Source of the DNA: Clytia hemisphaerica
Lineage: Eukaryota; Cnidaria; Hydrozoa; Leptothecata; Clytiidae
Length of the DNA stretch: 64,000 nucleotides
NCBI GenBank assembly: GCA_902728285.1
Contig: CACVBU010000236.1
Location: 372,001 to 436,000 of the forward strand
Reading direction: 5' to 3'
Shown here piece by piece: positions 6,030 to 40,292 of this stretch. How positions within the stretch are numbered: position 1 is the first letter of the stretch; each line of letters begins with the position of its first letter. A program made the translations under genes and the position numbers. The notes under the pieces are model-generated. The model was not told the DNA's origin and searched no databases. It was given only the letters and a program-made list of their open reading frames with translations.

Positions 6030-7207
6030 CTATACATTCGTCGTTGCATTCGAGTCCAAAAGTGAATTTGTTTCTGTCTCCTCCACAATTGCCGTTGAAT
6101 TTTGTTTCGGTTTGTCTTTTTTTATACCCGGTATGTTACGAATGCTTGGCCTGCTTGTTACAAGTTCGAAAGTTCCATTGCTTATTGTCAGTACGCTGTC
6201 TTTCACGCCAAGCTTCTTGGCTGATACGTCTTCTCTGATTTGGGACGTACTGGAAGTATTGGATTCTTTCGAACCAGCTCTTCGACATTGTCGTCGTGAT
6301 TTTGATTCTGGTGAATTGACGAGAAAAAAAATAGATATGAAATATTCTAATCAAACTGATATTAGCTGTCCTCTAATGGTGGTGATGACGCAAGGAGACA
6401 GAAAAGATTATTTTGATCATTATTGATCCTATGATCAGTGCTGCCAATTTGTTAACATTTCTGAAAATGTTTGACCTCCCAAACGAGCTGAAAGATTCTC
6501 AGACTTTTGAAGAGAAGAATAGTTTTACTTTTTCGAATGGTTATGACAACCATGATGATAATGCAAAGAGATAACAAGCAAACAACAACCCCCAACACTA
6601 TGATGATCATCTGTTTTTCACCGTTCGATTCCACCGAGTTGCCTTCACATCCTGACTGTTCTTCAGAACGGACAAATCTGTCAGCTATGGGAAAAGATAG
6701 ATCAAAAAGTGCTAGACTAAGTAAAGCTAGCAAAAGTATACCCCAATAAACAAAAAGTGGAAATGAACTATAGTTTCCGCTTGATTCCTTTTCAATGGGA
6801 GATAAAGAGTTTTGATTGCTTTGAACAGAATCTAACAACCTGACATAGGAAAATTGTCAAACCGCATCAGAGTAATTTGTAAAGAGCTTCTTTAGAGCCT
6901 TCAACGAAATCAATGACTCAATTTTCCATTTATTGTTACCTGACTTCAACTTGTGTCTTTCATTGATACAACACGCACGGCAGTCCTTCCCAAAAGGTCC
7001 AGGATCGCTTTCCATGGGACATAGTTCATCATTGCACTGGCGAAAGCCTCCATTGGAATAAAATTGAACGTTCCCTTCAAAATCAATCTTACAGATGTCC
7101 GAAATATCGATCCAAGTGTCCGTTGGTATTGACAGCGTGAGAACGAGGCTGGGCCTCGATATCAGTAACAGGACAGATGTTAACACAATTACGATATCAA
7201 ATTTCAT
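6030..7207 (-). CDS. TNFR-like single-domain receptor, paralogue 1
   Basis: Predicted join of exons 7207-6940, 6684-6529 and 6307-6030, both introns phase 1. Exon 1 encodes a signal peptide (MKFDIVIVLTSVLLLIS) and one cysteine-rich domain: C, then FYSNGGFRQC, ELCP, GPFGKDCRACC. Exon 2 supplies a short stalk and a strong transmembrane segment (IIIVLGVVVCLLSLCIIIMV) followed by basic residues. Exon 3 is a hydrophilic Ser/Thr-rich tail ending LLDSNATTNV. The six-cysteine spacing resembles BCMA/Fn14-type TNFR domains, so I infer a type I surface receptor. No death domain is visible in the tail. It is the last gene of a seven-member minus-strand array and closest to paralogue 2. The exon 2 donor is the least certain junction. 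Confidence 0.75.
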
Positions 7208-8932
7208 GTTGAGAAGTATTTTTGTACGTGTTTATCTGAAGAAGTTTCAAGTGGTTTTGGTATGAAGTAGTTCACTCATCATGTTTTAACTGAACGAGAG
7301 ATCACGAGAATTTATCAATTTGTGTCCACCAGGTAATTCCCTGATGTGTTCTCGCTATAACCCCCTTTAACAGAGTATGATGATTCATTTAACTAAGTAG
7401 ACCGCATAAAGTAAAAAGCTTAGCTAAGCACCCATTGTTTCTAGTAAATAATGTGAAATACTTGCTCATCCTCTTAGCTGAAAGGCATTCTTAAAATTTC
7501 TCAATGAACCGGGAAGCTTTGACAACAACACTTTCTCCAAGATAATAATAGACTTTTTAAAGGAAAGTACAAGGTCCATTATCAACGCACCACCGAATTC
7601 CCAGTACATTTTTGAGCTTAGCACCAGTCTAGGCTACGTCATATCTTCATTCGTTTCGAGCGTTTTTATTGTGTAGACTACACCAGCCAAGTTTTATTCT
7701 AGAAAAAACAGACCAAAAGTTCGAGGAATTCGAATGAAAAGGGAATTTTCAAGTTTTACATTTTCAATAGTTTCTATACAATACGGTTACGGCTGTGTTC
7801 TGTTTTGAACAAAACATGATTCTTTCATAAAGGGTGAAACATCCAGGAAGCAGGATAAACTTGAGAACGTTAAATGTTACACCACCCAGTACAGTATTTT
7901 CACTGTCTGTCTAGTGTTTACATTTTCGCGAGTTTACATTTTATCGCGTGAAATTAATTCTCCACGACGATAAAAATGGATAGTCTTATATATCTAACTA
8001 TATATTCTATCCGACCTAGGACGATGGTAAATCAATATTTTTGGCCCAACATTGGGAGGGCTTTTCATTCCAGTCTTCCAGCTCTCTGTGGTGCTTATGT
8101 CCGTTCTTTGAAAAAGCAGATTAGAGTTTATTTTGGAAGAAATGGCGCTTTGTATTAATCAGTATGAAGTGTACGCATTGCAAACAAACATTCGATTAAC
8201 ATTTGCTAATTTCTGGGCCTATCCTGGCTGCGTCAGCTTCTTGTTTATATCATTTTTAACGGTAGATCTTTCCAAGTCTTTTCGGTTACTCCCCCATCCG
8301 CAAAAAGAAAACCCTGAGCTCAATGGCCAACTTCTACGCTTCTAGATGTTTCTACATAAAATAATTGCGTCATTTATTTCAAGAATTTATTTTAAATATT
8401 TCAAAGTTTCAGTTGAGGTGTTTTAGGAATACCAGACAATCTAAAATACAGCGGTATTTAGTTGAATAGCAAGAACATTAATTAAGTTTTCTTTCCCTGA
8501 AAGATTACTAACTGAGACGGTTAGCTTTTGTATAGATCCTGATTGACTGAGGACGATACTTAATCAGCACATTTACCGTTGTCGTTTTGCGGGACATAAC
8601 TGCAAGTTTTCCAAATTATTTAGTCACTTCGCCTTACTCAAAAGCGTAAATACATAAACTCGGTTGTTGAATATACGGTATGTGAGCCTTTCCATACGGG
8701 AAAAATGAAGATTTTCATTAAGGTACTTTTCAATTTATTTTACATTTTTTTTGAAGTTTTATTGAATATCTTCCATGTTATATAATATTAAAAAAAAAAA
8801 TGAAATAAAATTACAAATGCGTTCAAAAAGAACTTTAATTTTAAAATTTTAAAATTAAAACGTATTAATTATCATTAAGATAACCATGTTAAAAATATGT
8901 TTAAAAACTAGAAATACAAACTCATGCCATAT
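7208..8932. other. Intergenic; one 51-bp mini-element
   Basis: Between receptor genes 1 and 2. At 7630-7680 a short piece starting TAGGCTACGTCATATCTTC and ending TGTGTAGACTA repeats the ends of the insertion at about 3804-4133, as if its interior had been deleted. 8820-8880 is an AT-only palindromic patch. No gene seen. Confidence 0.5.
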
Positions 8933-10017
8933 TTACATATTTACAAAGAAAGTGGCATCATCATTATGTCCGCCATTTTTAGTTGGCTTCTGTTGACACG
9001 TTTGGTCAGGTCTCGGCACGTTGCATTTCTTGTTGAAATCGAGCGACGGTTGGATGAACGAATGTTGTTCTCGAACGGTTACTCGCTTCGATAGATGCTC
9101 TAGAATGATTAAAAACATCACTTGAATAGATTGATTCTTTCAACGAACGATGCATAGAAGATCATTCTTAACTTATAACAAGCTACTACAAGCCCTTGTA
9201 GAAATAAAAAAATATTACTATCTAGATATTTCGTTGATTGGGCTACAATGGCCCCCTACAATGGGTTGAATCGAATCAAATGACTGAATATATTGCATAG
9301 AATATCCTATGACAAATATGACATGTCGCACTATTTGACCATGGAAAAACTTAAATAATAGTAGAGTGAGTACTTACGATTTTTTATTCTTCGAACGTAG
9401 CAACAAAACGCAACGACGACAATCACAAACAAAATGGTAGTCAGAGAAATGACAGTCACCAATGTTCGTGTTTCAATTCGAATGAATGAAGCTCCATCGT
9501 CGTTTGTTTTGTTCGATGATTTAGATCCTGTGAAATGAAAAAGAATGTAAACAATTTGCTCGTGGTAATGGGAGGCCTTCATGAAAAAGACTCTTTAAGT
9601 GGAAGGCAGTATATTATCTAGATTAGGGACAAAAAAGTGCTCGAAAGGAATCTCTAAATAACGTAAATGAAATGCATGAATCCAAAGGGAAAATGACCTT
9701 TAGTTATTACCTGAAGCTAGGATATCCCTTTTATGTACACAGCATACGCGGCACTCTTCACCGAAAGGGCCTGCGTCACCCTTCAATGGACATATCTCCT
9801 CAGTGCATGGTCTGAAGCCATCATTTGTATAAAACTGAATGACTCCGTCGAAATCTCGCATGCATGTTCTGGAAATTTCAGTCCAACTATTTTTCATCAC
9901 AGCCCTTCTTAAGACCATCGTTGAAATGAGTGTGCATCGAGATAAGAGCAATATGCAGAAAATATAGATTTCCATCGACATTGTGCTAAGGGAGAAAATT
10001 AAAAGTAATATTTTCAT
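8933..10017 (-). CDS. TNFR-like single-domain receptor, paralogue 2
   Basis: Predicted join of 10017-9711, 9527-9378 and 9099-8933; both introns phase 1 with good donors (CAG|GTAATA, ATC|GTAAGT). Exon 1: hydrophobic signal sequence near the N-terminus, then a cysteine-rich domain CMRDFDGVIQFYTNDGFRPC, EEICPLKGDAGPFGEECRVCC. Exon 2: linker and transmembrane segment (LVTVISLTTILFVIVVVAFC) followed by YVRRIKNR. Exon 3: basic/polar 55-residue tail ending DDATFFVNM. The cysteine domain is most like paralogue 1 (shared GPFG-x2-CR-x-CC), indicating a recent duplicate pair. Translation could begin at the first Met or at one slightly downstream (MSMEIYIF); both keep the signal peptide. Receptor function is inferred from architecture. 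Confidence 0.77.
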
Positions 10018-11080
10018 ACAACGAGTGGAATAGGAATGGGTGCGAGTAAAATATGGGCGTTCCGGATCGCTTCTGTATGAATCTTTATGCAGTTAGTAAA
10101 ATTGTAAAAATTTAGTTTCGATTGTTAGCGGTTTCTAAAATATTTTTTTTTAAATGACTGCCTCATCATTTTGATGCAATGGTCATTGTTTTTAAATGAC
10201 GCAAGCAGTTTTTATTCTGGATATTTAAGATGAAAGAGAGCATTTGAATCGTGTCAGCATTCCCATTCCATGTTCCTGTTTCGCGGGAAAATGATGGACA
10301 ATTTGTTAATACTTACCGTTTTGGAGCGTTTTTGATCAAAACTTTTCTGAAAATGATCCTTTCAGTTGAAATACCTTTCTACTCTGCGAGAAGAAACAAA
10401 GTTTGTTAGGTTAATACATTACTTTTTACTGAGTAAAAATGACGGAGCTAGTGTTATTTCTACACCTTATCACCTTGAAAACACACTCCATCGCCATGTA
10501 TATTTGGGGAAATTTTTTGACAAACACCATGATTGTATGTTACAATTTTCCCAGAAACGTTTTGAATTTACTGAAGTGCTTATGAAACTAAACACCTACA
10601 CTAACGTATGCATTGAGTGGGAAAAACCTCCCTTGCTTGTGGTTTTTGAATTTGAATAATTTAAAAGGGAAAAATGAAATCAACTTCTACGGAAGATGAC
10701 GTAATCTTTATTACGGAAATACCCCCAAAAAGACCGGGTGTTGAGGAAAAACCAAAAGATTTTTTATAAATATCTGGCTGTTTCCGTATAAAACGTTACG
10801 TATGATTATCACGATAGATATCATTTGTGGCCGAAATTCATTGGCTGTTTATTAGAATGTCCAAAAGACGTTCATAGTCCATCCATCCATGGTCACTGGG
10901 AATATCAGAATTCACGCTATTCACATCATGAGTCAGCTTGAAAATAATGTTGATCTTTATCATCATATTTGGCTTTGCTGAAATTTTCAAGCGTAAATTG
11001 TTTGACAAAAGTATGAAAAATGAACGCATTATTCAAAGGACAAAAAATTGTTTTGTCGTCGTCGATTATCACTGTCGATG
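10018..11080. other. Intergenic DNA upstream of receptor gene 2
   Basis: A 97-codon plus-strand open frame (10366-10659) has no signal, domain or splice context I can recognise, and I do not call it. Otherwise nothing. Confidence 0.45.
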
Positions 11081-11233
11081 TGTCACAGACCCGCTGCCCA
11101 CTGAAAATGGCCTATGGATTTTTATGCCTTTTTTAACCTCGGAACAATAAAATTCCTATCCCTATTGGGATTCAATAGGAATTTTTATCCCCACTGAAGA
11201 AAAAAGTGCCACCGGGGCTGTGAGACAGGGGTG
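11081..11233. mobile_element. TA-flanked MITE, GTCTCACAG family (5'-truncated)
   Basis: Starts TGTCACAGACCCGCTG and ends CTGTGAGACAGGGGTG followed by TA. The same ends bound the complete copy at 38345-38627. The interior has the family's 'cccactg' and 'tatccccactg' blocks. From 11235 to 12150 I see nothing else. Confidence 0.65.
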
Positions 11234-13470: not shown

Positions 13471-14548
13471 TTATAATGCATAGCTGAGGTTTCCTCGGTC
13501 TCCGACGCCTGGATCTTCCGCATTGATTGGCTCGCCTCGTCTTCTTCGTCTTTCTGTTGATAGAAAGTGAAATATTAAGATCATTTTTATAATTCTTACT
13601 GGTCTTTGTTCATTTTCCCATTCCATCACTGTGTGGATATAGCCTAAGGCGAAAATATGATGCTATCGTACATTAGACCTAGTTTTGATAACCGACTTTC
13701 TGCTTTGCCCAAATTTATTATTAGCGGGAAAAGATCAATAGAAACTTGAATGTTCCGAATCTTTATGCTTGTCATAAATTGAAAGATGTATTTGCACTTT
13801 TCGAGCTTTGGCCTACAATGAGAGTTTTTTAAAGTATTCAGCTATTTATCGAGGTAAATCAGAGAAAGAGAGAAAACTTCAGGGCTAGGCTAAGGCTTGG
13901 TCACTCATCTAGATAATCGTGCTCGACCCTGTTCTTTTTGCTGATAACGAGTTAATGAATCGGGGGAAATTGTTGAGAAAAATTACTTAAACTTTGGGTA
14001 GCGAAATTTCTTCTTTGTGACTCCCAAATTTTTACATACCTCGGGTTCTGTATAAATAAGCGGCGATTGCAAGTACCACAAGAAGAGCAAGAAGCCCAAA
14101 TCCAATTGTCAACCATGTGGTGAGATCGCCATTTCCTAAAAACGTAATTAAATGTTATTAAAAGTTCCTAATGAACATAAACATATAAATTAATGACCTA
14201 AAGAAAGGCTTAAAGTTAAAAACAGTATCCAGTTTGTTTCTGGGTCCTTGAAATTCCTCTGATGCAGTTAGACTAACGAGTAAAGAGTAAAATGAAGTGA
14301 ATATAATTCAAAACAGTGATTTCCATTCCACCCGAAATCTTTTGGTGGAATCAATATAATATTATCTTTTTACCAGGCTCTGGCGGGTCAACAGGAGATT
14401 CTTGCAAGCAACAATGTCTACAAGGCACAGTGTCTGCCCAATATCCTGTTTTCGGATCACAATTAGGTTGACAATGTCTAAATCCTCCGTTAGACCAAAA
14501 CATTTTGATGCCATCTTGAACTTCGCACGGTATCAACGTTATGGCCAT
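13471..14548 (-). CDS. TNFR-like receptor, paralogue 3 (no signal peptide seen)
   Basis: Predicted join of 14548-14374, 14135-14040 and 13553-13471; introns phase 1. Exon 1 holds a complete cysteine-rich domain: PCEVQDGIKMFWSNGGFRHC, QPNCDPKTG, TVPCRHCC. Unlike its paralogues it has no signal sequence: the Met at 14548 is seven residues before the first Cys and an in-frame TAA lies just upstream, so a 5' exon is either elsewhere, unrecognised, or lost. Exon 2 is short and almost all transmembrane (TWLTIGFGLLALLVVLAIAA then YLYRTR). Exon 3 is a 27-residue tail with an Arg run, ending NLSYAL. The NCDP...PC-x2-CC pattern groups it with paralogue 5. It may be a degenerating member. Confidence 0.65.
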
Positions 14549-16570: not shown

Positions 16571-18931
16571 TTAACATGTATCAGAAGCTACGTTACTCTC
16601 GGGTGCTTCTCGCATCCGGCGTTCCTCAGATTGCTCACTTCTTTGGCCCAATGGGATATCTTCAAGAATAGCAGACATCATGGGTGGGCTCAAGCATGCG
16701 GAATTGCCATTATGTAGGTTTGTGGCGGCGCCCGTAGTGAGTGAAGGTGTAAAAGCTGGTTGACCTATGATAGAAAAACAAACCCGTTAGTTAGCCGTTT
16801 TATGGCTGAAATCTCTCCTCGTCTATCTTTTGTTACATTTTGGATCACAATTAAAATATCTTTATTACTGACCTCTTTCAGAAACATCATAGGTTACTGG
16901 GGACGGAGGTTGGTGTCGTTGGCCAGTTGTTGGAAACGAATCGTCATCTTGCTCACTATCCAGTGATGAAGCCAGAGAAGAACTGAAAGTCTTGTTAATG
17001 TTGATTCCACCATGACCTTCGAACGGAATGCTTCCGCTGGCACGGTCAGTCAAAGGTGTGTTTGATGCAACTTCATGCTGATCTTCTCTTTGAGAGATTA
17101 CTACGTCAAAATTCGCGGCATTGCTGATTCCATTTGGGCGGTTCTTCGGGCGTGTTTGCTCTCCCAACTCATCAGGTTGTATGTTCGCTTTTATAGAAAA
17201 TCGTAGAATTAAATAAAATATCCAATCAACTTTAGATTCTAAAAACAGAGGAAGATTTTCAATTTAGAAAGTCAATCCTTACCTCATGTTTATTGAGATG
17301 AAACTCACCCCTATGCTACAGGTATTCCCTAACGGACTCGCGCTTCTATAGAAACTCCCACCCACGGTTTTATATAGAGAGATCTTATACAAGCTCACCT
17401 CTGTTCTTCCTATTCAGGTATTTATTGACATTAATTGCCACAATGAAAACGATGTTGATAAGGATAAAGGTGCATAGCAACGCAAATGCAATGTGGAACC
17501 ATGATTGATATTTGTCGCCTCTCTCTTCACTTGCTGCCAGTTGATCGGGAAAATGTTTTTCTTCATGTAACAATTCCACTGAAAATAAAAAGGATAATTT
17601 TGTAGAACATGCCCGTGCGACAGACTAGTATAATCTTTCTCAGATATAGATGGAATTTGGACGAAGAAATAAGACACAATAATTTATTTAAGTTTTAAAC
17701 ACGTCTGAACATCTCCCTACACGCTTTTTTTTATAAGTATGCACTTTATAAGAATGTCCATGATGAAAATGGCCAAAAAATTAAGAATACACGTTTTTTT
17801 TTTATTAGAACCTAGTTTATAAGAACATATAGGCTGAAATTCGTCGAAAAATTAAGAACATCTTAAGAACATGCCCAGCCTCAGTTTGGAAAAAAATGAC
17901 AAGAAACTACAATTTTTTCCTCTTTTTAAGCAGTTTTAACTGAATTTAGGGATGGATCTTCAAGAGTCGAAAGTCAAAAATTTTGTCCAAATTTTGCCAA
18001 ATTTAAGTGCTCTCTATTTTGTATCATATTGTCGATTTAGAGTAGTCTGAAAAATTAAGAACGCATTTAAGAACATTTTAGGCTGAAAATTGCTAAAAAA
18101 ATAAGCACATCCAGGCTCAGCCAAATTTTAGGTGTTCTAATAAAAAAAAAACGTGTATGGTAAGAATATCACCATCATGGAATTTAGCAACTGAACCTAA
18201 GAATGCCATTTTTAATGCATTTTAACTTGTAGATTGCCAATTTCGATCTTAACCTAAGAATACTGTAAGAATATTTTTGGATGATTTTCGCCAAAAAGTT
18301 AAGAATATCCATCATGAAATGAAAAAACACCATTCTTATAAAAAAAGCGTGTAGTCCAAGAAAGAAGAGGGCGAGCTAAAAACGTGCTCACACGATATCT
18401 ACAAAAAAAATCTGGAACTAGCGAGAAAATATAAATGGTAGCTAACTCCTCCCTGTTGGAAAATTCAGTAAAAATCTCTCTTCGATGGAAAAATTACACG
18501 AGATATAAAAAGAGAAGCGGTAAAACAATAGCTGTCGTGATTCACTAAGGTGAATACCCCTTGTAAGCAATCACTCAACTTATTATGGTTATAATCTAGG
18601 TTATAATTTGCACAGGTATTAGATATGTACACATATTTGGCTTTTGAGCAACGAAAAGAACTACCATACCTGTTTTGTTTGCCCAGCAGCAGAAATAGCA
18701 AAATGAAAACTCTATACCATACGGTGGCAATCGATCCAAGGGGCAGAGTCCATCGCAGTATTCATAACCCTTTTTCTCCACATAAAACCTTTTCCGGCCG
18801 TCCACTTCCTGACACAAGCCATTATACCATGTTATGGTACCCGTGAGAGGTTTCGAAGAAGAATCATCTCCAAAAAGATGAACTAAGTCAGGCGCAATTG
18901 AAGCAAAAAGAAATAAAATAATCAGCAACAT
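16571..18931 (-). CDS. TNFR-like single-domain receptor, paralogue 4
   Basis: Predicted join of 18931-18670, 17578-17399, 17187-16873 and 16764-16571, all three introns phase 1. Exon 1: signal peptide (MLLIILFLFASIAPDLV) and a cysteine-rich domain CQEVDGRKRFYVEKKGYEYC, GLCPLDRLPPYG, FCYFCC. Exon 2: acidic stalk and transmembrane segment (IAFALLCTFILINIVFIVAI). Exon 3 (105 codons) and exon 4 (64 codons) form the longest cytoplasmic tail of the array: acidic, Ser/Pro-rich, containing SSSLASSLDSEQDDD and PPSPVTYDV. No death domain recognised. Paralogues 6 and 7 share the CPL...C-[FY]-x-CC pattern. The four exons join in a single open frame, which supports the model strongly. Intron 1 contains a TA-flanked MITE. 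Confidence 0.78.
17720..18351. mobile_element. 632-bp TA-flanked MITE (CACGCTTTTTT family)
   Basis: Starts CACGCTTTTTTTTATAAG and ends CTTATAAAAAAAGCGTG, with TA on both sides (17718-17719, 18352-18353). The interior repeats AAGAA(T/C)AT and GCCAAAAA words. TA duplication and length suggest a Tc1/mariner-type MITE. Located in intron 1 of receptor gene 4; relatives at 28004-28198 and 33599-34519. Confidence 0.8.
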
Positions 18932-20066: not shown

Positions 20067-22317
20067 TCAGAGGTTTGCCTTACGAGTGAAATGAATTACA
20101 GCCAGGAGCACAGAAACGAGCGTTGTGAGTAAATAGCCGGTCAACCGAGCGGTGATTTTGACACCCAATATTCGATAACCCATATATCTTGTTCAGTGAT
20201 GTGAATATGTTGATGATATAACATCATTTGATCTTGTATCTCTCCTCTCAAAGGAGAACACATATCTCCAACTAAAATCATCAGTTTTCTCAGTGAGGAA
20301 TTCACGATGGCTGCTGGTATCAGCTGAAATGAAAAAGAACTCAAAATAGCTCTCATTCCCGCAGGCCTCTTAAAACTATTGAGTTTAAAGCCCCAGGGGC
20401 TATGAAGGAATCTCTAACATTTCTCAAGCAAGAAAAAGTGAATCTTAAGATTTGCGCAGCATTTAGAATGGCGGATTGAATCCAGCCCTCTTTTTGATTT
20501 CACGTGACATTTCAAAATCTAGCGATCAATTTTACGAAAATGGCTTCATTTCCCATCCAAAAGTTTCGAATCTAGCATCTTCGAGGATTTGAAATCAATG
20601 CTGGCTAAAACTCATCAAATAACACCCAGATAAACCAGGTAGCATTTTCGTTAGAGCAAGGAACTTATTTTCAAAGGAACTTTAATCAAGCCTAGCATTT
20701 TGTTATAAACAAACCTTGATAAACAAGCTAATGAATACCATCTCCAGCAGATACACTACTAACAACGCATTTTTATAGGCTTCAAAAAAGAAAGCAAAAC
20801 TATATGCCGTCATATCAACAACATGAATCGCAACGGATAAAGAAATGATTCCATGTAAAGCTCTCTCCGATTTGTTCAACTTCTTTTTGAGGACATTGAA
20901 ACGTTGCATCAAATCCTGAAATAGAATTAGAAAAGTAAAGTTTTAAAAGCATGCTATAAATATAACCGTTGGGATCTAAAATCAATGTGTGTACACTAAC
21001 CAGCCCTACGTCCTAATCTATATAGCTTTGCCTTTGTGACCCTCTAGACCTCTATCAAGCAAATATTTAAACAGAAACAAATTTAAACCTCGATTTGTTC
21101 TGCTTCAATCGGTTCATTTCGATATCTTCGAAATTTTTCGCGAATGGATTGAATCAATCTCCAGTGAACGTGGCAAATGTACGCGTAAAGAATTAACCAG
21201 CATATACGCCAACCTTAAAATAAATAATTTTATGGTTTAGTTGATTAACCAATAAGTTAACGAAGCCGGTTTGCTGTATCACTTTGACTACATAATCTAG
21301 GAAGAAACTGCTAAGAGAGTGACTTTAAAACAATCGACTACCTTAAGGGAAGAAATTTTCGCGAGAAGAAATTTTCGCGGAATTTAATTTCGCGAATCAG
21401 AATTTCAAAATGGCAAATTTCGCGGAATTTAATTTCGCGAATGAGCCGATTTCAAAAGTTTCACGGAATTTAATTTCGCGAATGAGAAATTTCAAAAGAA
21501 TTTTTTTTAGAGAGAAAATGTTTTTCATATTTTTCATCGATTTCAAGACATATTTCAGTCATATTAACAAACTTTAACAAAAGTCATGATTAAAGTTCAT
21601 CGCCGTCTTCTTCCTCCAAAAAATCGAATATCGCGGAATTTAATTTCGCGATTTAGCCATTTTGGTGTGTTTTGCGGAATTTAATTTCACGAATTACGCC
21701 CTAATTCGCGAAATTAAATTCCGCGAAAATTTCTTCTCGCGAAAATTTCTTCCCTTAATATTTAACCAGCCTTATTACTATTGGGCTAATCTTTCAAGGA
21801 AACAGTCTAGTAGGGCTGTCTAACGTATCATGGGCTTGGAAAGTTTAGTTTTCTCACCATTTCCAATGACTGCTATATACACATAAATAATCCATTTCCA
21901 ATGATATTCGATTTTGAATGTCGAGTAGAAGAAGGATACCAACTGGCCTGAACACACAGCCCATAGTACGAACGCAAGAATATTGTATCTTCGGACGAGT
22001 TCGGAATAGTTGCGTTCGCTTTGAAGCTCATTTTCAACTAACCAACTGTAGTTCCCCTTTCTGTAATGCCATTTGGTGCACAAGAAAGCAACGGTGAAAA
22101 TAGCGCTGAACAAAATCCCATTGACAGATCCTTCCCACTTTGAAGAACCGCCATAGAAGATGTAAATGATGCCTCCAACAAGAGCAAGCAACATAACAAA
22201 ACCAAACTTGTTTAAATGCTTCACGAGTGGTTTCGCATTGCTGGGTTGCCAAAGTGCTAGACAACGTAACATCAATTGACAGGGTCGTAGCGCATGAGTT
22301 GGAGATGCAACATCCAT
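20067..22317 (-). pseudogene. Gustatory-receptor-like 7TM gene, frameshifted copy
   Basis: Four exons on the minus strand: 22317-21858, 21213-21089, 20915-20715 and 20323 onward, with intron phases 1, 0, 0 exactly as in the plus-strand sister at 22651-24927. Exons 2-4 and their introns are nearly identical to the sister; exon 1 is diverged but colinear (RPCQLMLRCLALWQP against RPCRLMLRGLALWQP). In exon 4 the sequence GATATATGGG (complement of about 20179-20188) has two extra bases relative to GATATGGG in the sister. This shifts the frame and stops at 20141, removing the last membrane segment, although homology continues to a stop at 20067. Probably a pseudogene or recent null allele. The family call rests on several hydrophobic segments and the conserved C-terminal membrane helix; it is an inference. 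Confidence 0.65.
21347..21754. mobile_element. 408-bp TTAA-flanked MITE
   Basis: Starts GGGAAGAAATTTTCGCGAGA and ends with its complement, flanked by TTAA at 21343-21346 and 21755-21758. The subterminal GCGGAATTTAATTTCGCGAA recurs several times. TTAA targeting is shared by piggyBac and Kolobok groups. It sits in intron 1 of the frameshifted 7TM gene and has no counterpart in the sister gene. Confidence 0.85.
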
Positions 22318-22650
22318 TACACAGTTCAAAATTCTGAACGCAATTCTTTGAAAGAGTAAATCACATCTCACTCACATCGCAAACAAAAGAGCCTTGAAAA
22401 GCAAGCATGGAATTTGAGATGTTTTTGTTTGGGTATCAGTAAGATACGACAATAACAAACTGACGCGTAAATAAACCTGAAAAAAATGAATCAAATATCA
22501 TTTCGAGAGGAGAAAAATATGTTACATTCAGAAATGTAAGTTAAGAATTAATCAACAACAACTGGTCGTGGCGAGTTGTATCTTTATTAATTTCTGGTAA
22601 AGTAGAAATACTCAAAATATTAACGGGACAGCACCCACAAATTATTTATA

Positions 22651-24927
22651 ATGGAAAAATCAACTCACACAATACGTCCTTGTCGATTGATGCTTCGTGG
22701 CTTAGCACTATGGCAACCGATCAACGCAAGTCTTCTGATGAGGATGTACAATAGGTTTGGATACGTTATGTTGATTCTCCTCGTTACCGCTATCATTTAC
22801 TTCTATAACATTGAAAACGACAATAAATTTTATTGGAAAAAGTCTGTCAATGGTGTGATTTTTAGTGCAACGTTTGCTGTAGCTTTCTTCTGCACTAAGT
22901 GGTATTACCGAAAAGGCAATTACAGTAAAATGCTGGAGATTGAACTGGGTCCTGAAAGGGTACATTGCGCGAAGCTTGTCAAACGATATAATCTTTTCGC
23001 TCTTCTGCTTTGGGTAGTGTGCGCTGGTCAGTTGTTATGGAATTATTTTTATGAATTGCAAAGTTTTCATGGTTGGTATTGGGTTGTCTATGTTTATTTA
23101 GCTGTCATTGGAAATGGTAAGATGAGCATTTTTTTCCTTCTAAAAAGAGACAATACACTAACAATACACCAGGCCAACTACCAAAGAACCACACGCAGTG
23201 GGAATGGGACGAAATGTGTGGATTATAGGTATCCCTCATACCTACTGTTACCCACATAAACGCCATATTGAGGTTATTCTTTGTGCTATACTTTAAAGGA
23301 CTGCTTCTTTCTTATTTTTTCATGGAAAAAAGTCTTGATCAACTTTTTAGGTTGGCGTATATGCTGGTTGATTTTATACGCGTACATTTGCCACGTTCAC
23401 TGGAGATTGATTCAATCCATCCACGAAAAATTTCGAAGATATCGAAATGAACCGATTGAAGCAGAACAAATCGAGGTCTAAATTTGTTTCTGTTTAAATG
23501 TTTGTTTGATAGAGGTCTAAAGGGTCACAAAGACAAAACCGTATAGATTAGGGTGTAAGGCTGGTTAGTGTCACACATTGATTTTAGATCCCAACGGTTA
23601 TATTTATAGCATGCTTTTAAAACTTTACTTTTTGAATTCTATTTCAGGATTTGATGCAACGTTTCAATGTCCTCAAAAAGAAGTTGAACAAATCGGAGAG
23701 AGCTCTACATGGAATCATTTCTTTATCCGTTGCGATTCATGTTGTTGATATGACGGTGTACAGTTTTGCTTTCTTCTCTGGAGCTTTTCACTCTCGATAT
23801 CATGAAAATGTTCGAATCACAATCTATCTGTTGGAAATATTGATGCAACACATTCTCTGCTTGTTTATTAAGGTTTTATTACATCCCCTTCTCACAGACC
23901 CATTGGGAACCCTTCCCACTTGAAAAATTGTCCAAAATATCGTCCCCAGTGGAAATTCATCATCCGATTTTTGTCCCCATTGAAAATAATCAAATAAACC
24001 AACCCTTACTGCATATTATGCTATTTTTTCCATCCCCACTGAATTTTCTGACTTGAAAACAAAAGAATTTGAATCCCCAGCCATATGGGAATATCACTCC
24101 CCATCGAGTTTAAGTCCGTTATTTTTACCCCCACTGGCTGAAAAGATCCTGCCGGGTCTGTGAGAGGGGATGTATTTGAGTTTCTTGAAACCCTACGAAC
24201 ATTTTGATGAAATTTCCGAAATTAGGTCAACGTCAACTGTTGCGCAGTTTTAATAAACGGTTGGAAAGATATAGATGTGAAGTATAGTCCAATTTTCTGG
24301 AATTTTCGACGAAAATCTTCAATTTTAAAGAAAGAATTGGCGCTGGAATCTTGCTTCTAATTTATACAGGGTGACAGAAATTCAGGGGGAAATAGAATAG
24401 TGGAGTCAGGTACCCCCCCCTGACCCCCTGAAATCCTCCCTTTTACTAGAACAAGGTCAGCCCCCCCCCTTACACTTGATGTGAGACCACTAAAGGTAAA
24501 ATCTTCAAATAGACCTGAAATTGGCGTTTTTTTGAGGTTAACACCCACTTTTTGTTGAAATTCTTTCATTTTACTAGAAGTTTTCGAGAATCTATAATAA
24601 AAATTGCATTTTGTGAAAGTAATATCCGCGGTAGACACCCAAAAACTTTAAGGTATGACTTCACTTTTTCAGCTGATACCAGCAGCCATCGTGAATTCCT
24701 CACTGAGAAAACTGGTGATTTTAGTTGGAGATATGTGTTCTCCTTTGAGAGGAGAGATACGAGATCAAATGATGTTATATCAACAACATATTCACATCAC
24801 TGAACAAGATATGGGTTATCGAATATTGGGTGTCAAAATCACCGCTCGGTTGACCGGCTATTTACTCACAACGCTCGTTTCAGTTCTTATTGCTATCGTT
24901 CATGTTGACCAAAGCAAACAGTACTGA
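22651..24927 (+). CDS. Gustatory-receptor-like 7TM protein (intact copy)
   Basis: Predicted join of 22651-23116, 23351-23475, 23648-23872 and 24673-24927, giving 356 residues; intron phases 1, 0, 0 with clean GT/AG signals. The protein is multi-membrane: hydrophobic segments around GYVMLILLVTAIIYFY, SATFAVAFFCTKWYY, FALLLWVVCAGQLL, VVYVYLAV running into ICWLILYAYIC, SLSVAIHVVDMTVYSFAFF, IYLLEILMQHILCLFIK, and a last one (TGYLLTTLVSVLIAIVHV). The C-terminal GYRILGVKITARLTGYLL block resembles the TM7 region of the insect Gr/Or and animal Gr-like superfamily. If correct, it is a ligand-gated channel-type chemoreceptor with intracellular N-terminus. It is head-to-head with a frameshifted copy at 20067-22317. 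Intron 3 carries a MITE. Other 7TM families cannot be excluded without profile searches. Confidence 0.7.
23882..24172. mobile_element. 291-bp TA-flanked MITE, GTCTCACAG family
   Basis: Starts CATCCCCTTCTCACAGACCC and ends GGGTCTGTGAGAGGGGATG, with TA at 23880-23881 and 24173-24174. The interior has the recurring 'ccccact/ccccattg' blocks also seen at 38345-38627. Intron 3 of the intact 7TM gene. Confidence 0.8.
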
Positions 24928-26876: not shown

Positions 26877-27530
26877 AATTCACTGGTTCTTATAAAAAAA
26901 TGTAATGCATGAACAAGGTTTGACTAAAAGGTTTATAGTTATATGAGATTAACACAACAAAAGAATTATAGAGCCCGTTTATATGAATGATTCTCTGACA
27001 ATCTAAGAGGAAACCCCAAATCGCCGCGCCGAATAACTGAAAGGTGTGCAAACGGGCTCTAGCTTCAGGTCCAAAAGATATTTACAAGTTGAAAACCCGT
27101 TAAATGTTGCTCTATAAGCTAGACTAACATATAGGCAGTTTCTTCTATGGTAGGTCTTTCGTTTTCTTCCGTGACTGGTGGGGACGGCTCCTCGGCACCT
27201 GCTTCAATGGGATCTAAGATCTTTGTTTCGGTGGCTCCGTTACCGAGTAATGTGATCATTGTTTGGTTTGCAAGATTGTTCTGTTCATCGGGCGGTGATG
27301 GGGCTATACGGGAAAAGAAATATTTCAATATTAAAGTTTTTGATCTATTTTAGTGTATTCTTACAAAAAAACATCTTTTGATCAATCATGACAACCACAG
27401 AGAAAGAGAAAAATTTAATTGGGAAATTGGATATCTGGAAATTCCCATTGTTACGGTAAAAGGGAATTATGAAAAAAAGGGAATTTTCAATTATCCATTA
27501 CACTTTTTTATAAGAACCAGTAAATTTCTG
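26877..27530. repeat. Inverted-repeat pair enclosing a receptor exon
   Basis: Arms 26877-26911 and 27496-27530 are inverted with about 3 mismatches in 35 (core ACTGGTTCTTATAAAAAA). Between them lies the last coding exon of receptor gene 5 (27303-27119). A related left end recurs at about 26459. It may be a TIR element that captured or grew around the exon. Confidence 0.6.
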
Positions 27531-28661
27531 TTGAGGCTCGGCATTTCTCGGTTTTGACACTTATAGTCTCAAATTGTTCATTCTGTTTATATTATTAGTA
27601 AGTAAAAGCAGCTATTTTCAGCGTTATGTTTAATTACATTGTTTAAACTTCAACAACTCTAGTCTTATCATTGTTCTGTATTTTAAGCGTTTTGAGATTC
27701 ACTTTTTGATTAAATTATCCTCATAAAAAAGAGCGATCCGTTAATAAGAAATAGGGAATTTTGTTAGGCTTTGTCATTTATACTATGAAAAAACCGTACA
27801 CAGAAAAAAACAACTCACGACTTCTTGAACGTTTTACGAAGAGAAATGCACCGACGACGACCACCAACACGAACAGCGAACCCAAACCCGTCAAACCTGC
27901 GACGAGACCTGAAACGTAATCCGAGTTTTCTCATTATTTTATTGTCTAGGATACAGCTGTTGTTTTCTCTACCAAACACCGTCGCTTGTCTTTTTACAAA
28001 ATACACGCTTTTTTATAAGAATACACTTTATAAGAATGTCCATGATGAAAATGGCCAAAAAATTAAGAATAATGCTAAGAATATCACCATCATGGAATTT
28101 TGCTACTCAAGCTAAAAATGCCATTTTCAGAGGATTTTCGATTATAAATTGTCAATTACCTTTCTTACAATTACACCATTCTTATAAAAAAAAGCGTGTA
28201 TTCATGGATTTTTAAAAATCACTGATAGCGATTTAAAGATTTTCAGATTTAAAGATATGCCGTGTTTTACTTGATTTTTTTTATCACTGAGACTGAGACA
28301 GGGAGGGTGTCAAAAAAGATGTACACATTTTCGAAAGAAAACTCGAAAAAAAAATCAACAAACCTTTGTTAATTCCAGTTTTGGTTACATGAATTTCGGG
28401 TTTTCGTGTATTGCAGCATTCACCGCAAGGAATTGAATCAGCAAACAAAAAAGTGGTTGGATCACAGTTGCTGCATTTCCGATACCCTTGGTACCAGAAA
28501 TAATTAACATCATGTTCATCTTTTCTACAAAGTCCAGATTCTCCAAAAGAAGTCATCGTTAGCGCTTCGATAAGCGTATAACATAATGATAGCAATAAAA
28601 TTGTCATTGTTCTGAGCACTGTCTTGAGTGTAGTCATGTTTATTTGTTTGTTTGTTTTCAA
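27119..28661 (-). CDS. TNFR-like single-domain receptor, paralogue 5
   Basis: Predicted join of 28661-28364, 27908-27819 and 27303-27119; introns phase 1. Exon 1: signal peptide (TMTILLLSLCYTLIEAL) and cysteine-rich domain CRKDEHDVNYFWYQGYRKC, NCDPTTFLFADSIPCGECC. Exon 2 (30 codons) is almost only a transmembrane segment (GLTGLGSLFVLVVVVGAFLF) plus VKRSRS. Exon 3: acidic Pro/Glu-rich 61-residue tail ending ERPTIEETAYMLV; TAYMLV fits a loose ITIM/YxxV pattern at the very C-terminus. Two start codons are possible (first Met or MTTLKT). The cysteine domain groups with paralogue 3. Intron 1 contains a TA-flanked MITE, and the last exon lies between inverted repeats. Confidence 0.76.
28004..28198. 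mobile_element. 195-bp TA-flanked MITE (CACGCTTTTTT family)
   Basis: Starts CACGCTTTTTTATAAGAAT and ends CTTATAAAAAAAAGCGTG, TA at 28002-28003 and 28199-28200. A short family member in intron 1 of receptor gene 5. Confidence 0.85.
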
Positions 28662-30359: not shown

Positions 30360-32011
30360 TCAGCAAATGGATTCTCTACTTGAAGCTTCACTGGAGCCGA
30401 TTCCTTCATCGTTTTGATTTTCTCCTTCTTCAACATCATTCGTATCAAAATGAAACGACTTCTTCGTCCCTGAAGGTACGTCAACATGCTCGTCCGTCAG
30501 GCCTTGGTTGACGTCATAATCGCCGGCTGCTACGTCATTCCTGATTGGCTCGTTTTCTCCAAGAAAATGGTCTTGGACGGGATTTTCTAAAATGAAAAAT
30601 ATTTACAGTAATTGGTAACCTTTTTCTCGGTCGGAACACTTGGAGAGGTTGTACTGTAATTATTGTACTTTGAATCTTACCAGGAATTATATTTGTCAAT
30701 GTTTCTTTCAAATTATCATTCTCTTTGACTAAAGAGAGACGTTGATTCTGATGGTATTTGAATTGGGCAAGTGAACATAAGAAGAGTATCAGAAATGATA
30801 CACCAGCTGTGAAGAGGACGTCTTTTTTACATCCAGGTGCAGTCTGTTCAGGAGACGTTTGCTCTTCTCCTCTCGTCTCCTGCTTCGTGACATTTAAGGC
30901 GGGTGGCGTGGTCGTCTGTGGTAACGTTGGACATTTTGTTTCTAAGGAAAAATATTTGTGAAATTACATTACGAGATATAAGATTAGAAAATAAAGTCCT
31001 CTCTCAGTGACCGGTGAATTTTTTAGCCAGCAGAAATAAAATAATGCAGTTAAGAAGCAGGTGAGCATTGGACATAAAATCGACCCTTGCATTTTCTTGA
31101 AAACTCTCGTCCATATTAAGATAAAAAAGGTAAATTTTTTCCAAAATGTTGCCCAAAACTGATTAATTACTTTGAGTACCCCACCCCCCCCCTGGGATCG
31201 TAACTATTTCTTCAAAATTGAAAATAAATCTGTAAAAACATCCCCACCGACTTTATGGGGTAAAAAAACAGGTTTTATTTTCAAAGGTTTTTTCAAAGAA
31301 TAGTTTAAGTGCTATGGGGTCTCGATCGGGGTTATCTCCTTATTTTTTAACTTTTGGCGTAAGTGTAACACGAGAAACATCATCAACTTACAAAATCAAC
31401 TCTCTTCAAAACAAACAAAACAGGTCTCTGGTTTAAGTGAACAACTAGAAAACCATTTCCTCGAAGCATTATCAACATACAAAGAAAAGCTCTTTTAAGA
31501 TAAAGAAGGGATGGTAAAGTTAATACACATAGAAATTCAATCAATTTCCAAGGTAACCTAATTTTGATTTAGATTGAAAAAGGTACAGATATACGTAACA
31601 TGTCGGCGGTCATATAGATAACACTAGACTGTAATGAAATACAAAGACATCAAAGTGATTGCTCACGGCCTTACCTGCTATCTTGCTCCAACAACAGATG
31701 AAACAGTGAGGGTACTCAGTATTCATGGTCTTCATTTCCGTCAATGGACAATTATGTGATCCATCGTTCAACACACAAGGTTGATGGCCTTGTTTTGTGT
31801 AAAACTCTGGTCTGCCATCTTTCCCAATCATACACCTTCCGTCTTTCCAAGGTCCTGTCTGTTTCGTACTATGCTTATTAGAATTGTTTATGATTACACC
31901 AGACGGTTTTGCTGCGACCAAACAAGTAAACAAGACAAAAATCAGGAAAAAAGTGTTCACTATGGACTTATCCAAGGGCGCTCTTGTGTCGCAACCGCAG
32001 CCGAAAGACAT
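30360..32011 (-). CDS. TNFR-like single-domain receptor, paralogue 6
   Basis: Predicted join of 32011-31675, 30941-30681 and 30586-30360; introns phase 1. Exon 1: a short N-terminal extension, hydrophobic signal segment (NTFFLIFVLFTCLVAAK) and cysteine-rich domain CMIGKDGRPEFYTKQGHQPC, HNCPLTEMK, YPHCFICC. Exon 2 (87 codons) has a Thr/Pro-rich stalk with an extra Cys pair (KCP, PGCKK), one transmembrane segment (VLFTAGVSFLILFLCSLA) and a polar juxtamembrane stretch. Exon 3 encodes a strongly acidic 75-residue tail ending SSRESIC. The three exons join in one open frame. The domain groups with paralogues 4 and 7. A cytoplasmic signalling role is inferred only. Confidence 0.77.
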
Positions 32012-35375: not shown

Positions 35376-35602
35376 GTTTTGTTCTTAAATAAGAGTGATA
35401 TCGTTTGCTTACTCGTCAATTCTAATTTCCAAGCTTTTTCGCATTGGATTGACAAGGATGTGGAGCAAGATTGATCAGAAAGAGGAAAAGAAAAACATTT
35501 TTTGCTTATATCAGCATAACATAACAATAGGAAGACACTGTCCCGATATGAAATATGTGTCTGATATGAAACGGGAACACTTATGTAAAAACAAAACCAT
35601 TA
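35376..35602 (+). repeat. Dispersed repeat, copy 2 (uninterrupted)
   Basis: Matches both ends of 3731-4303 without the ~330-bp insertion found there. It opens a spurious 86-codon frame that I do not call. From 34522 to 35375 and 35603 to 37620 I recognise no gene. Confidence 0.65.
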
Positions 35603-37773
35603 GTCATTTCCAGCAACTTGATAGAATGAAAAAACGGGGAAAATACAAAACGTAATAAGCGACGACAGGCTACGCTACAGACAGAAAAATCTTACTAAAG
35701 ATTTAGAGAGGATGTTTGAACCTCGCAGTTACCGAATGGAACATCCCGCCAACTTCCCTCGGCCAGATATCTATTCAAAATATCTAACAAGGAGCTTTTA
35801 GAGACCATTTACTGTAGAATTACCTTATATTGGTAATTTTAGATAGATATGGAAACAATTACCAAACCTTTTATTTCATTCTGATCTGACCCGAAAACCC
35901 AGGATAACATCCCTTAAACATCGCATAACAATGTCTGGCATTCATATTAGTGCAGATCTAAAAATAAAGAAAGTATTAATTAGGTTAAATACACGCCCTT
36001 CTTTTCAGAAAAACTGCACCCCTAGAATTTTTTACGTAATTTTTGTTGTTGTTTATATTAGCACCATGAAATCTTCAACACCAATTCCCTAGTAGATTTG
36101 GAGCCTAAATGTGGGATTTAAGATTTGTACAAGCCTAGATATTTCAGTCCAAGAAAAACTAGACTATGCTATAGTCTAAGACAAATCACTATCTAAGAAT
36201 TAAGTCCAAAGCCGAAGAAAGATCGCAAACGGGTTTTTTGCCGAAAAGAGTTTACAGTCGGTAGAGTTTGCCAGTCTCCCGCCGATTTATTTTCCGTATA
36301 CCGCCATAACGCCATACCACGATATTTTTCCGCCTTTACTATCACTGTGACAGACGATAATATCGTCTAAAGAAAAACATGATTTTTAGCCAAAAAGACC
36401 AAATAGGACATTAAGGGTATTTGAAGCCAATTTTTGACCGTACGTACCTTTTGTTGGCAAACCTAAAATCTAAAATGAATTAAAAAACAGTGCAGTTTGT
36501 TTGCAGTCGATTTGTTTAAAGAGAGGACTTGCACATTGAAGATATTTCTTACAGTCCCGACTCTCGACTCACGGCCATAAAAGTTGACTTATCATAACGC
36601 TACGTTAAAGGCAGTATTACTTATTCATAAATAGTAGTACCAAGCTTTCATAACGAAAAATATGAAAAAATAAAATTAATTTACCTCGAGAATCCACATA
36701 CAGGCGGTTGCGAATCATTGTTTCGTAACATCCATGTTTATTGATGACTCAGCCCCATGATAGTCGTCAAAATTTAGAAGACCAAGAAGAACATTGTATC
36801 CGACTGGAAGACAAATCAACAAAAATCAAAAACAGAGATTATAAAGAGCATATAATGTAACGAATACTTAGGGTGTTCTGTAATTGTAGAGAACGGTTTA
36901 TCAACAGATTATAGCAAATAGACACTGATTGAAAAGCTCTCCAAATTTTAAACAAAATAATATGAAACCATACGATCATGCCATAAAAATACCCATTTTC
37001 ACAGTGTTATCCCCTAGTCGCCTAGATGCCTCTTAACAGTGACCAAATTTGATCAGTTACCATATATTGGAAATCTGATTTAGCTTAATTTTCCACTTGT
37101 GGTGACGAAGTGCGAAGGTTTACCATGTCGTCATCTTTGTCAATGATCTCAATTGGAACTGGAAGGTAAAAAAGATTTTTGAAGAGAGAACCACAGGATG
37201 ATAACTATTGGGAAGAATAAGTGAATCCAGTGTTGTTTGCTACGTCTTATGGCCGAAAGTCTCACTTTCACCCATTTTTAAAGTATCCGCGAATCGACAA
37301 AAAAGACGGTACTAGAAAACCAATAATTCTATGGTGAAATATATCGGAATACTGGTCTCTAAGGGTTATCAAAAATAAACAAAGAAACCTTTCAGCAACG
37401 AGGACATCACAAGGCCAGAAAAGAGAGGGAAATATTAAAAAAAGCTTATTCTGCAAAATATCGGAACATTACGTCATCCAGACAAAACATTGCACCACCA
37501 TAACATGATGTCGAATTTCATGCACGAAGGTACACCCCCTACAACTTGTTGAGCCACTGTACTTTACAAAAGTTGATACGTATTTATTTACAATTCATCA
37601 AACAGTGAAGAAAGAGTCATATTACTCTTTTTTTGTAAGCATAACGTTTATAAGCATACATAGGCTCAAACTAAGTAAAAAATAAGCATAATGCTAAGCA
37701 TACATCCAAGCTGAAATGCAAAAAACACTTTTTTAAAACGTTTTTAATTGGGGGGGGGGGGTGTGCTCAAATT

Positions 37774-37946
37774 TGGTCCTACAAAGAAAAAACAAGAAAT
37801 TAACAGACGGGACAATCCATTTATAAGGCCAATCCGAAGAAGAGGTAAGGGCAGACGAATGGACGGACGGACGGACGGACGGACGGACGGACGGACGGAC
37901 GGACGAACGAACGAACGAACGTGAAATAGCATCTCCAGGTAGGCCC
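37774..37946. repeat. GGACCTACC-family fragment with (GGAC)n
   Basis: Starts TGGTCCTACAAAG and ends CCAGGTAGGCCCA, the degenerate ends of the element family at 42108-43242. About 37858-37920 is a (GGAC)n then (GAAC)n tract. Upstream, 37622-37740 resembles the interior of the CACGCTTTTTT MITEs. Confidence 0.6.
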
Positions 37947-38344
37947 AAAAACATCCATATATACAATTTGAGGGTATCCGGGAAAACATTGTGGAAGATG
38001 TTTCATTCGGGCTGCATTTCTAAATGAAAAACATTAGCAATAAAAACACAGTAAGCTAAGAGCTAAAGTTCTGATCCGGGATTCAAAATTCTCTATAAGT
38101 CGGGAAAATGAAAAGTAATTTAGACCTTTACAAGCAGCACTCCCTCTTAAAAAACTTTGCTTGTGTGATCACCAGAAAATCTGTCATGAAGGAAAGGTTC
38201 TTTAACTTTTTTTGAAATTCGGTCTTAATCTTTAAATTTTCTGAAAAATGCATATGTACAAGTAGAAAGTTATAAACACTCAAAAAAATGTTAATATACG
38301 TTCTGATGGTGTGCATATAAAAAATTTGAAATCAAATAAAAATA

Positions 38345-38627
38345 CACCCCTGTGTCACAGACCCGCTGGGACCCTTGCCCCATGGAAAAATTTGGCCAGA
38401 ATTTTGTCCCCAGTGAACAAAATACCGTACAAATTCAGACCCACTCGGAAATTGACTTTGATTTCATCGCCATTCGAAATTCAATAAAAATATTTGCTGT
38501 CCAAAACCATCCCTACTGGATTTTTTAAGCTCGACAACAATAGAATTTCTATCCCAATTGGGATTTCGATACAACTTTTTATCCCCACTGCGGGAAAAAG
38601 ATCCACCGGGCTGTGAGACAGGGGGTG
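38345..38627. mobile_element. 283-bp TA-flanked MITE, GTCTCACAG family (complete)
   Basis: Starts CACCCCTGTGTCACAGACCC and ends GGGCTGTGAGACAGGGGGTG, TA at 38343-38344 and 38628-38629. Interior blocks 'ccccagtg', 'tatccccactg' recur in the copies at 11081 and 23882. Lies just downstream of receptor gene 7. Confidence 0.82.
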
Positions 38628-38785
38628 TAAAAATGTATGTACAACTTTTGCAAATTTATAGTTTACAACTCAGCTACTTTTAAGGCGGTAGCAGAACAAA
38701 TGTACAAATGTACAAATGACTTTCAGAGGATGGACAGCTTAACAACAATAGTAACAAAAACATTGGTGACACAGTAAACTAAGGT

Positions 38786-40292
38786 CTAAAGTTCTGACCC
38801 GGATTCAGAATCCGAATCTGCGGTGACTCCACTCGTTTCTCCATTCAAGTCAACCACCTCATCGTCCAGCCCAATATGATTAGAGTGAAGAATATTACCA
38901 CCGTCTGTCATGTGTGGCGTGCCGTGACCGCTGTCAGGTTCATTGGTAGCTCGTTGGTGGTGGTCAGGTTCGACGTTCATTCCGTGGTGATCTTGCTCCA
39001 TAGCAGTGTTTGTGGAAGAAGGGAAGGCATTCAAGAAGTCTGTACTACTTCGAGTGTCTGGTTGCGCTGTAAAAGGAAATAGTATAGAAATAAGATAGAG
39101 TGCAACATAATAGCCAAACAGTTTACTCTTTTGTTGACTTTGTTGGTAAAGGCGCAGATGATGCTCTTGCTAACAATATGCAGATCAGGTTAGAAATTGG
39201 ACAGCATTTTTGTACGAGAATGGACGCTACGAGAGGGGATATGTGAAGGATGAGGGGTTCAACTGCCTCATCTACAGCTCTTCGACCGTAAAAGCTTTGT
39301 AGAATATATAACAAACTTACGATTGAAGATAGTGGGAGATCTGCGGACCCTCACCACGTAGTAAACAATGAAAACAAGCGACGCAGCAAGGAGGATGGAC
39401 AGAACAACCACAAGAACCAAATAAACTTGTTTCGTATCATCTGTCTCGGCAATTTGTGATTGATCGTCTCGTTTGGTGGTTTGTGGTGGAGATGTTGGAT
39501 CTAATGACGAGAATAGTCAAAGTGGAAAAAGCACATATAACGATTCCGGAAAACATAACATTCAATAAAATTACGTTACCTATTCATGATATGCACCATT
39601 GCAATGTCTTCCATTCCACCCAATAGCTGATTGGTTCAAAGTGACGTTATGACTGATTTTACGTCACTTACAGCCAATGAGCGATTGGTTCCGTGATGTA
39701 ATGTCAGAAGACATTGCAGTGGTGCATATCATGAATTGTTCTAACTCCGAAATCTCACCCTGATATTCTTATAAAAGTTATTCTTATATTAAAAAAGCGT
39801 GTAATTGAGAAAATTGCTTACATTTAAAATTCGATTCTACCATTTTGTGAGTTTTTTAATGCATTTTCCTAAGAAACTTGGTCTTTCAGAAACCAAGAGG
39901 CCTTAAAATGTTCTTAAGCTTATTCTTAATATTTGGTCCTCGAAGCCTTATGTTTTTATCAAAGTTTGTTCTTATAAAAAGAAGGTATAATTACCTGCAC
40001 CGTTCGTGCCATGGCAACAGATGAAACAGTATGGATTCACCTTCGCCAAAACAGTCAATACATTCTTTAGGGGGCAAAGTTTACACTCCTTGTACCCAGA
40101 CCCTGTCTCTGTATCCCAAAATTTGATTTCATTTCCATCCTTTTGACACAAATTTTGCTTCCACGGGTCATCACCATCTTCCTCTGTAGCACTCATCAAA
40201 GGGGAAGCTTTTTTAAGCATTTGCTCCGGCTTCATAAAGGCGGACGAGATGCAGCTTCCGAGAAGCAACGAAAAAAACAATCCATTTTTCAT
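38786..40292 (-). CDS. TNFR-like single-domain receptor, paralogue 7
   Basis: Predicted join of 40292-39995, 39500-39321 and 39066-38786; introns phase 1. The start at 40292 (MKNGLFFSLLLGSCISSAF) puts the signal peptide at the N-terminus; the frame is open 13 codons upstream (Met at 40331). Exon 1 then carries an acidic stretch and the cysteine-rich domain CQKDGNEIKFWDTETGSGYKEC, LCPLKNV, PYCFICC. Exon 2: Thr/Asp-rich stalk, transmembrane segment (VYLVLVVVLSILLAASLVFI) and basic stop (VVRVRRS). Exon 3: 93-residue His/Asp/Glu-rich tail ending SDSESGSEL. Groups with paralogues 4 and 6. It is the most upstream member of the array as transcribed. Intron 1 contains a short hairpin MITE at 39582-39736. 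Confidence 0.77.
39582..39736. mobile_element. 155-bp hairpin MITE
   Basis: Arms 39582-39611 and 39707-39736 are 30-bp inverted repeats with one mismatch (ATTCATGATATGCACCA...). Intron 1 of receptor gene 7. A truncated CACGCTTTTTT-family end follows at 39771-39802. Confidence 0.85.

Follow-up and report, generated by a model that had tools for sequence, protein, structure and literature searches.

The window analysed here is a stretch of 64,000 nucleotides from Clytia hemisphaerica (contig CACVBU010000236.1, C169, positions 372001-436000, in a genome of 417 Mb and 951 contigs), and it contains a tandem array of seven genes predicted to encode receptor-like proteins with one shared cysteine-rich domain. 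A six-frame motif scan of the window located seven copies of this six-cysteine domain between 6968 and 40148, all on the minus strand, with the pattern C-x17-20-C-x2-8-C-x12-15-C-x2-CC (spacings of 17-20, 2-8, 12-15, 2 and 0 residues). A first-pass annotation of this DNA had claimed seven minus-strand genes with common cysteine spacing and orientation, which the scan bears out for all seven, with the correction that the gap between Cys2 and Cys3 is longer in gene F. A strict motif recovers six of the seven domains and a looser one, admitting a Cys2-Cys3 gap such as that of gene F, recovers all seven; both were composed after the sequences had been inspected, and neither gave a match in 20 first-order Markov shuffles of the window. 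The loosest motif produced two extra, overlapping matches on the plus strand (52507-52581), and matched 0.45 times per shuffle. The domain alignment has 68 columns and 59 profile positions, with a mean column identity of 41% and eight invariant positions (C, F, G, C, P, C, C, C). Every domain has a single CC pair, and the loops between the fixed cysteines vary among the seven. Hidden Markov models (HMMs) built with one copy left out recovered every left-out copy at expectation values (E) of 2.2e-16 to 3.3e-7, the best non-member scoring E 0.03 or worse; the rows were removed from one common alignment, which makes this test slightly generous. The domains, with these leave-one-out values, are as follows.

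6968-7093, minus strand: cysteine-rich domain A, found by motif; leave-one-out E 6.5e-13.
9739-9864, minus strand: cysteine-rich domain B, found by motif; leave-one-out E 2.2e-16.
14408-14527, minus strand: cysteine-rich domain C, found by motif; leave-one-out E 1.7e-8.
18686-18814, minus strand: cysteine-rich domain D, found by motif; leave-one-out E 7.8e-9.
28413-28529, minus strand: cysteine-rich domain E, found by motif; leave-one-out E 3.3e-7.
31691-31834, minus strand: cysteine-rich domain F, found by the looser motif; residues 60-107 of the model, with a Cys2-Cys3 gap of 8; leave-one-out E 2.3e-10.
40014-40148, minus strand: cysteine-rich domain G, found by motif; leave-one-out E 1.7e-7.

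Direct comparison of the domains agrees with the profiles. By BLAST, 13 of the 21 domain pairs match at E 0.001 or better, the best at E 1.8e-25, and pairwise identity lies between 18 and 51%. The domain tree places A nearest to B and joins C to E with a support of 0.94, and D to F only weakly (0.46). In all four of the pairs examined, out of 21, the third codon position is near saturation and the first two are more conserved (0.68, 0.79 and 0.35 for A and B), a pattern that leads us to read the domains as coding sequence under purifying selection; no ratio of nonsynonymous to synonymous substitution was obtained for these pairs, synonymous sites being saturated.

An open, splice-compatible gene model can be assembled around each of the seven domains by adding a transmembrane exon and either one or two exons for the tail. 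The models extend over 6030-40292, the range previously given for the array, with gene G starting at 40292 and gene A stopping at 6030. Every model is free of internal stops and has GT/AG intron ends; the introns number 15, all of them in phase 1. This uniformity of phase is partly selected, since phase 1 was expected when the exons were chosen: the search for transmembrane exons admitted phase-1 exons only and found six of the seven, and the other exons were chosen by eye, including the transmembrane exon of gene F, which fell below the hydropathy threshold of that search. Splicing and orientation were deduced from the sequence. Hydropathy profiles give a transmembrane segment in all seven models and a hydrophobic leader in six, where one exon encodes both leader and domain.

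6030..7207, minus strand: gene A, exons 7207-6940 (leader and domain), 6684-6529 (stalk and transmembrane segment) and 6307-6030 (tail); 233 residues; complete open reading frame, hydropathy peaks.
8933..10017, minus strand: gene B, exons 10017-9711, 9527-9378 and 9099-8933; 207 residues; spliced model, hydropathy.
13471..14548, minus strand: gene C, exons 14548-14374, 14135-14040 and 13553-13471; 117 residues; spliced model, hydropathy.
16571..18931, minus strand: gene D, exons 18931-18670, 17578-17399, 17238-16873 and 16764-16571; 333 residues, with the longest tail; spliced model, hydropathy.
27119..28637, minus strand: gene E, exons 28637-28364, 27908-27819 and 27303-27119; 182 residues; spliced model, hydropathy.
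30360..32011, minus strand: gene F, exons 32011-31675, 30941-30681 and 30586-30360; 274 residues; spliced model, hydropathy.
38786..40292, minus strand: gene G, exons 40292-39995, 39500-39321 and 39066-38786; 252 residues; spliced model, hydropathy.

The uniform layout that had been proposed holds for the domain and transmembrane exons of all seven models and breaks down in gene C, which has no recognisable leader and an ambiguous last exon, an alternative short exon starting near 13812 (judged by eye). The ATG of gene C lies seven residues ahead of the first cysteine and is preceded by in-frame stops, and the gene may encode a type III protein, be truncated at its 5' end or have lost its leader. 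These features of gene C, together with the choice of models under an expected intron phase, would suit an array of partly decayed duplicates or chance exons without function. We consider this very improbable, given open splice-compatible models for all seven copies, the lack of any motif match in the shuffles and the conservation of codon positions. Common descent of the domains, the same orientation and the same gene layout are all found in the array, as would be expected of a tandem paralogous family.

What follows the domain and the transmembrane segment is different in each gene. The tails run for 33 to 197 residues beyond the transmembrane core, are 25-30% hydrophobic, and show no similarity to one another in tail-to-tail BLAST (best E 0.056); set against the 13 domain pairs that match, this upholds the description of the tails as unrelated and polar. 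The contrast bears on whether the array could be a recognition family, for self and non-self or for pathogens, with domains diversified for different targets. The tandem arrangement, the low domain identity within one genome and the variable loops between fixed cysteines would all suit such a family. In recognition families, however, the signalling tail is usually common to all members and it is the ectodomain that varies, so the completely different tails speak against a family with one shared output, and the codon positions of the domains show conservation, with synonymous sites saturated; we regard this reading as unlikely.

The same layout brings to mind the small single-pass adaptors of the Shisa/STMC6 type, which bind partner receptors through the cysteine domain and recruit trafficking proteins through the tail. 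These proteins also combine a leader, a cysteine domain with a CC pair, a transmembrane segment and a variable, low-complexity tail (PMC10531659; for CYYR1, PMC11399591). Shisa proteins, however, follow the pattern C*C*CC*C*CC*C, which requires two CC pairs where each array domain has one, and PY motifs are reported for some members (PMC10531659), whereas [LP]PxY occurs 0 times in the seven array tails. Pfam scans of the seven domains and seven proteins returned no Shisa family either, and we think it improbable that the array proteins are adaptors of this type.

The family appears confined to the array, within the reach of the searches. In a profile search of 280 kb of flanking sequence, 240 kb of it towards lower coordinates and 40 kb towards higher ones, no eighth copy was found, the best E being 0.12. 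At E 0.01 or better, searches of the 417 Mb genome with each of the seven single domains returned nothing beyond the array members; these genome searches are insensitive, since each domain recovered itself plus none, one or two sisters. A match on C584 (E 0.026) was considered as a dispersed copy and rejected because the domain's first half is missing from it, and further weak matches on C658 (E 4.3), C852 (E 0.89) and C805 (E 1.0) are known by score alone. No description of such a family was found in the accessible parts of the open-access literature on tumour necrosis factor receptors (TNFRs), Grindelwald, Shisa proteins, allorecognition, sponges and cnidarians. As judged from the sequence, the single-domain, receptor-like genes form a real and apparently undescribed tandem family.

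Several other features surround these genes. Within the array, at 21820-23923, lies a divergent pair of similar reading frames with multiple transmembrane segments and no Pfam match at E 0.01, which we take to resemble gustatory-receptor-like proteins. Two long minus-strand open reading frames (ORFs) occupy 49956-53422, one with a GIY-YIG endonuclease domain in Pfam, a domain also present in Penelope-like retroelements. A divergent pair of histone H2B-like genes lies at 564-1818, both with a histone 3' stem-loop behind them; the minus-strand gene matches PF00125. Repeats are found at 57333-59325, where several arrays of the 8-base unit TAACCCTG and its complement occur in both orientations, and at 62603-63499, where a 433-base unit is repeated about twice with 91% matches. 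The low-coordinate flank encodes Mab-21 type (cGAS-like) proteins at L016:8719-9999 (minus strand) and L032:530-2236 (plus strand). At L016:4690-5598 (plus strand) there is a precursor-like ORF with about 17 [V/I]PRLG[K/R] repeats, counted by eye, and a PBAN match at E 2.6e-6, which is probably an amidated neuropeptide precursor. TNF, forkhead and neuropeptide-like frames in the genome mark it as that of an animal.

The first-pass annotation had gone further and suggested a lineage-specific family of TNFR-like surface receptors. Motifs, models, profiles and the flank scan support a tandem family with a single domain, a single transmembrane segment and a receptor-like layout; the TNFR module itself found no such support. 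The arrangement of extracellular domain, single transmembrane segment and cytoplasmic tail expected of TNFRs is present by hydropathy. When the seven domains were compared with TNFR and BCMA profiles, as the annotation had suggested, neither these nor the seven full proteins matched any TNFR, BCMA, TACI or Fn14 family in Pfam, PF00020 included, at E up to 10, a setting at which the HMMER filters still drop most weak matches. No Pfam match to the domains or proteins reached its curated cut-off, and most covered transmembrane segments. Two that fell on the domain, Baculo_IE-1 (E 0.01; 15.7 bits in the gene G protein against a cut-off of 33.1) and DUF7369 (E 0.18), were taken as chance. A search of the PDB with the family profile gave no match at E up to 10, and matches to the single domains F and B were set aside as short unrelated stretches, the best being to a lipase at E 0.025. 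In profile-profile comparison the array scored a probability of 0.09 against BCMA/TACI/Fn14, below the decoys, and 0.31 against TNFR cysteine-rich domains (CRDs) of the same genome; a true TNFR pair used as control reached only 6.9, within the range of the decoys, which were made by shuffling columns (60 each, with maxima of 6.2 and 9.7). BCMA used as a phmmer query finds TACI only at E 0.15. With the control pair inside the decoys and two accepted relatives so far apart, sequence comparison cannot decide the matter for domains this short, and the negative results carry little weight.

Cysteine spacing says more than the profile tests, yet it too does not decide TNFR membership, and taken alone it allows more than one disulfide topology. 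A bridge between Cys1 and Cys2 would make the first half hairpin-like, similar to a module of many TNFRs, and would leave the last four cysteines paired unusually. Alternatively Cys2, Cys3, Cys4 and Cys6 can be read as C-x2..8-C-x12..15-C-x3-C, a C2-like module of the Grindelwald type, and this nested pair would leave Cys1 to pair with Cys5. The C2 module of Grindelwald (Grnd) is reported as C-x3-C-x11-C-x3-C, close to the array spacing, and the protein resembles those of the array in its single cysteine domain and one transmembrane segment; its fold identifies it as a TNFR, while in sequence it has very little in common with other TNFRs (PMC8024323). According to the same source Grnd differs in having eight cysteines and two intercalated hairpin bridges, where the array domains have six cysteines and only Cys1 ahead of the C2-like part, and in a tail with Traf2 and Veli binding regions. 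The likeness to BCMA, TACI and Fn14, TNFRs with one or two CRDs, is of another kind and consists of one small six-cysteine domain, one transmembrane segment, a short tail and aromatic residues in the first loop. BCMA, TACI and BAFF-R have no signal peptide, in which gene C is like them, and BCMA is a type III protein (PMC5360319), as the product of gene C may be. The array domains nevertheless do not have the spacing of BCMA, TACI and Fn14: BCMA reads C-x12-C-x2-C-x3-C-x8-C-x3-C against C-x17-20-C-x2-8-C-x12-15-C-x2-CC in the array, which also lacks, by eye, the D-x-L between Cys1 and Cys2.

The same genome does possess a TNF system. TNF-domain frames were found on C843 (E 8.3e-13) and, more weakly, on C294 (E 0.02), and TNFR-type exons (PF00020) at two places, on C771 and C338, where several CRD-like frames, judged by eye, are clustered. 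These exons also encode cysteine-rich modules, though the CRD frames are not among the array-profile matches listed (to E 16). The TNF-domain ORF at L013 has a collagen-like Gly-Pro frame nearby on the opposite strand. The presence of a TNF ligand and canonical receptor exons leaves room for TNF receptors in the array but does not support them directly; no TNF-family gene was noticed beside it among the 8 window and 5 flank ORFs covered by the Pfam scan. TNFR numbers vary widely between animals, with 40 in one coral, as cited in PMC12843592, so that an unusual receptor set is not strange in itself. The proposal that the array proteins are TNF receptors, which would be a special case of single-pass receptors, can draw on the domain and layout, on the near match to Grnd and the sequence divergence of Grnd itself, on receptors that lack a signal peptide as gene C does, and on the TNF system of the genome. 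Against it stand the Pfam and PDB results, the profile comparison below decoys (though its positive control failed too), the foreign spacing, tails without the excess of TRAF motifs that would liken them to BCMA, TACI and Fn14, and the lack of a TNF-family gene among the 13 ORFs scanned in window and flank, and we consider it a possible but doubtful identification.

We favour, with somewhat better than even confidence, the broader reading that the array encodes tandemly duplicated single-pass cell-surface receptors in which one scaffold has been wired to seven outputs. It builds on the domains and their common descent, the splice-compatible exons, the transmembrane segments, the codon conservation and the unrelated tails. 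Each protein would present a compact six-cysteine domain on a short stalk, followed by the transmembrane segment and an unrelated polar tail, the domain probably consisting of a beta-hairpin, a short C-x2-8-C segment and a C-x2-CC knot. At the cell surface, where we would place these proteins, the domain would most likely bind a protein ligand. Ligands of one type may trigger signalling by clustering, which would bring the tails together, and each tail would then recruit a different cytoplasmic partner, giving one binding scaffold with seven outputs. Single-domain TNFRs work by clustering, and at least one TNF ligand gene is present in the genome, which makes a TNF-type ligand the most specific candidate; this guess overlaps with the TNF receptor proposal, and we regard it as possible rather than likely.

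Several observations weigh against receptors of this kind. Pfam scans of the seven full proteins gave no signalling domain in the tails above cut-off, and no death domain. The TRAF-type motif [PSAT]x[QE]E was seen once in the tails against 1.9 expected by shuffling, and none of the 11 tail motifs counted is clearly in excess; C-terminal PDZ-type ends number 2 against 0.2 expected, the lowest figure of the 11 and one uncorrected for that number, and ITIM-like motifs number 2 against 0.5. Gene C is without a leader, and reading the sequence and frame upstream of it revealed no leader exon. A role as adaptor, decoy or adhesion molecule would be just as compatible with these proteins, whose splicing, ligand binding and fold are predictions from the DNA.

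Within the reading of single-pass receptors, a bolder form is that the array represents a new branch of the TNFRs, with a minimal six-cysteine domain that has one hairpin cysteine and a C2-like knot closed by C-x2-CC, too diverged for profiles to detect, expanded in one lineage and linking the same type of TNF ligand to seven unrelated tails. We offer this as speculation that is rather unlikely to be correct. In either case the array is compact, with seven genes in 34 kb, and suits direct study of expression and ligand binding. If the proteins are not TNFRs, their domains would constitute a small family of receptor domains that goes unrecognised by Pfam. If the TNFR branch is real, TNF signalling outside vertebrates would be wider than profile searches reveal, as Grindelwald exemplifies in flies, and the array would provide a set of paralogues in which one binding scaffold has been joined to many tails.

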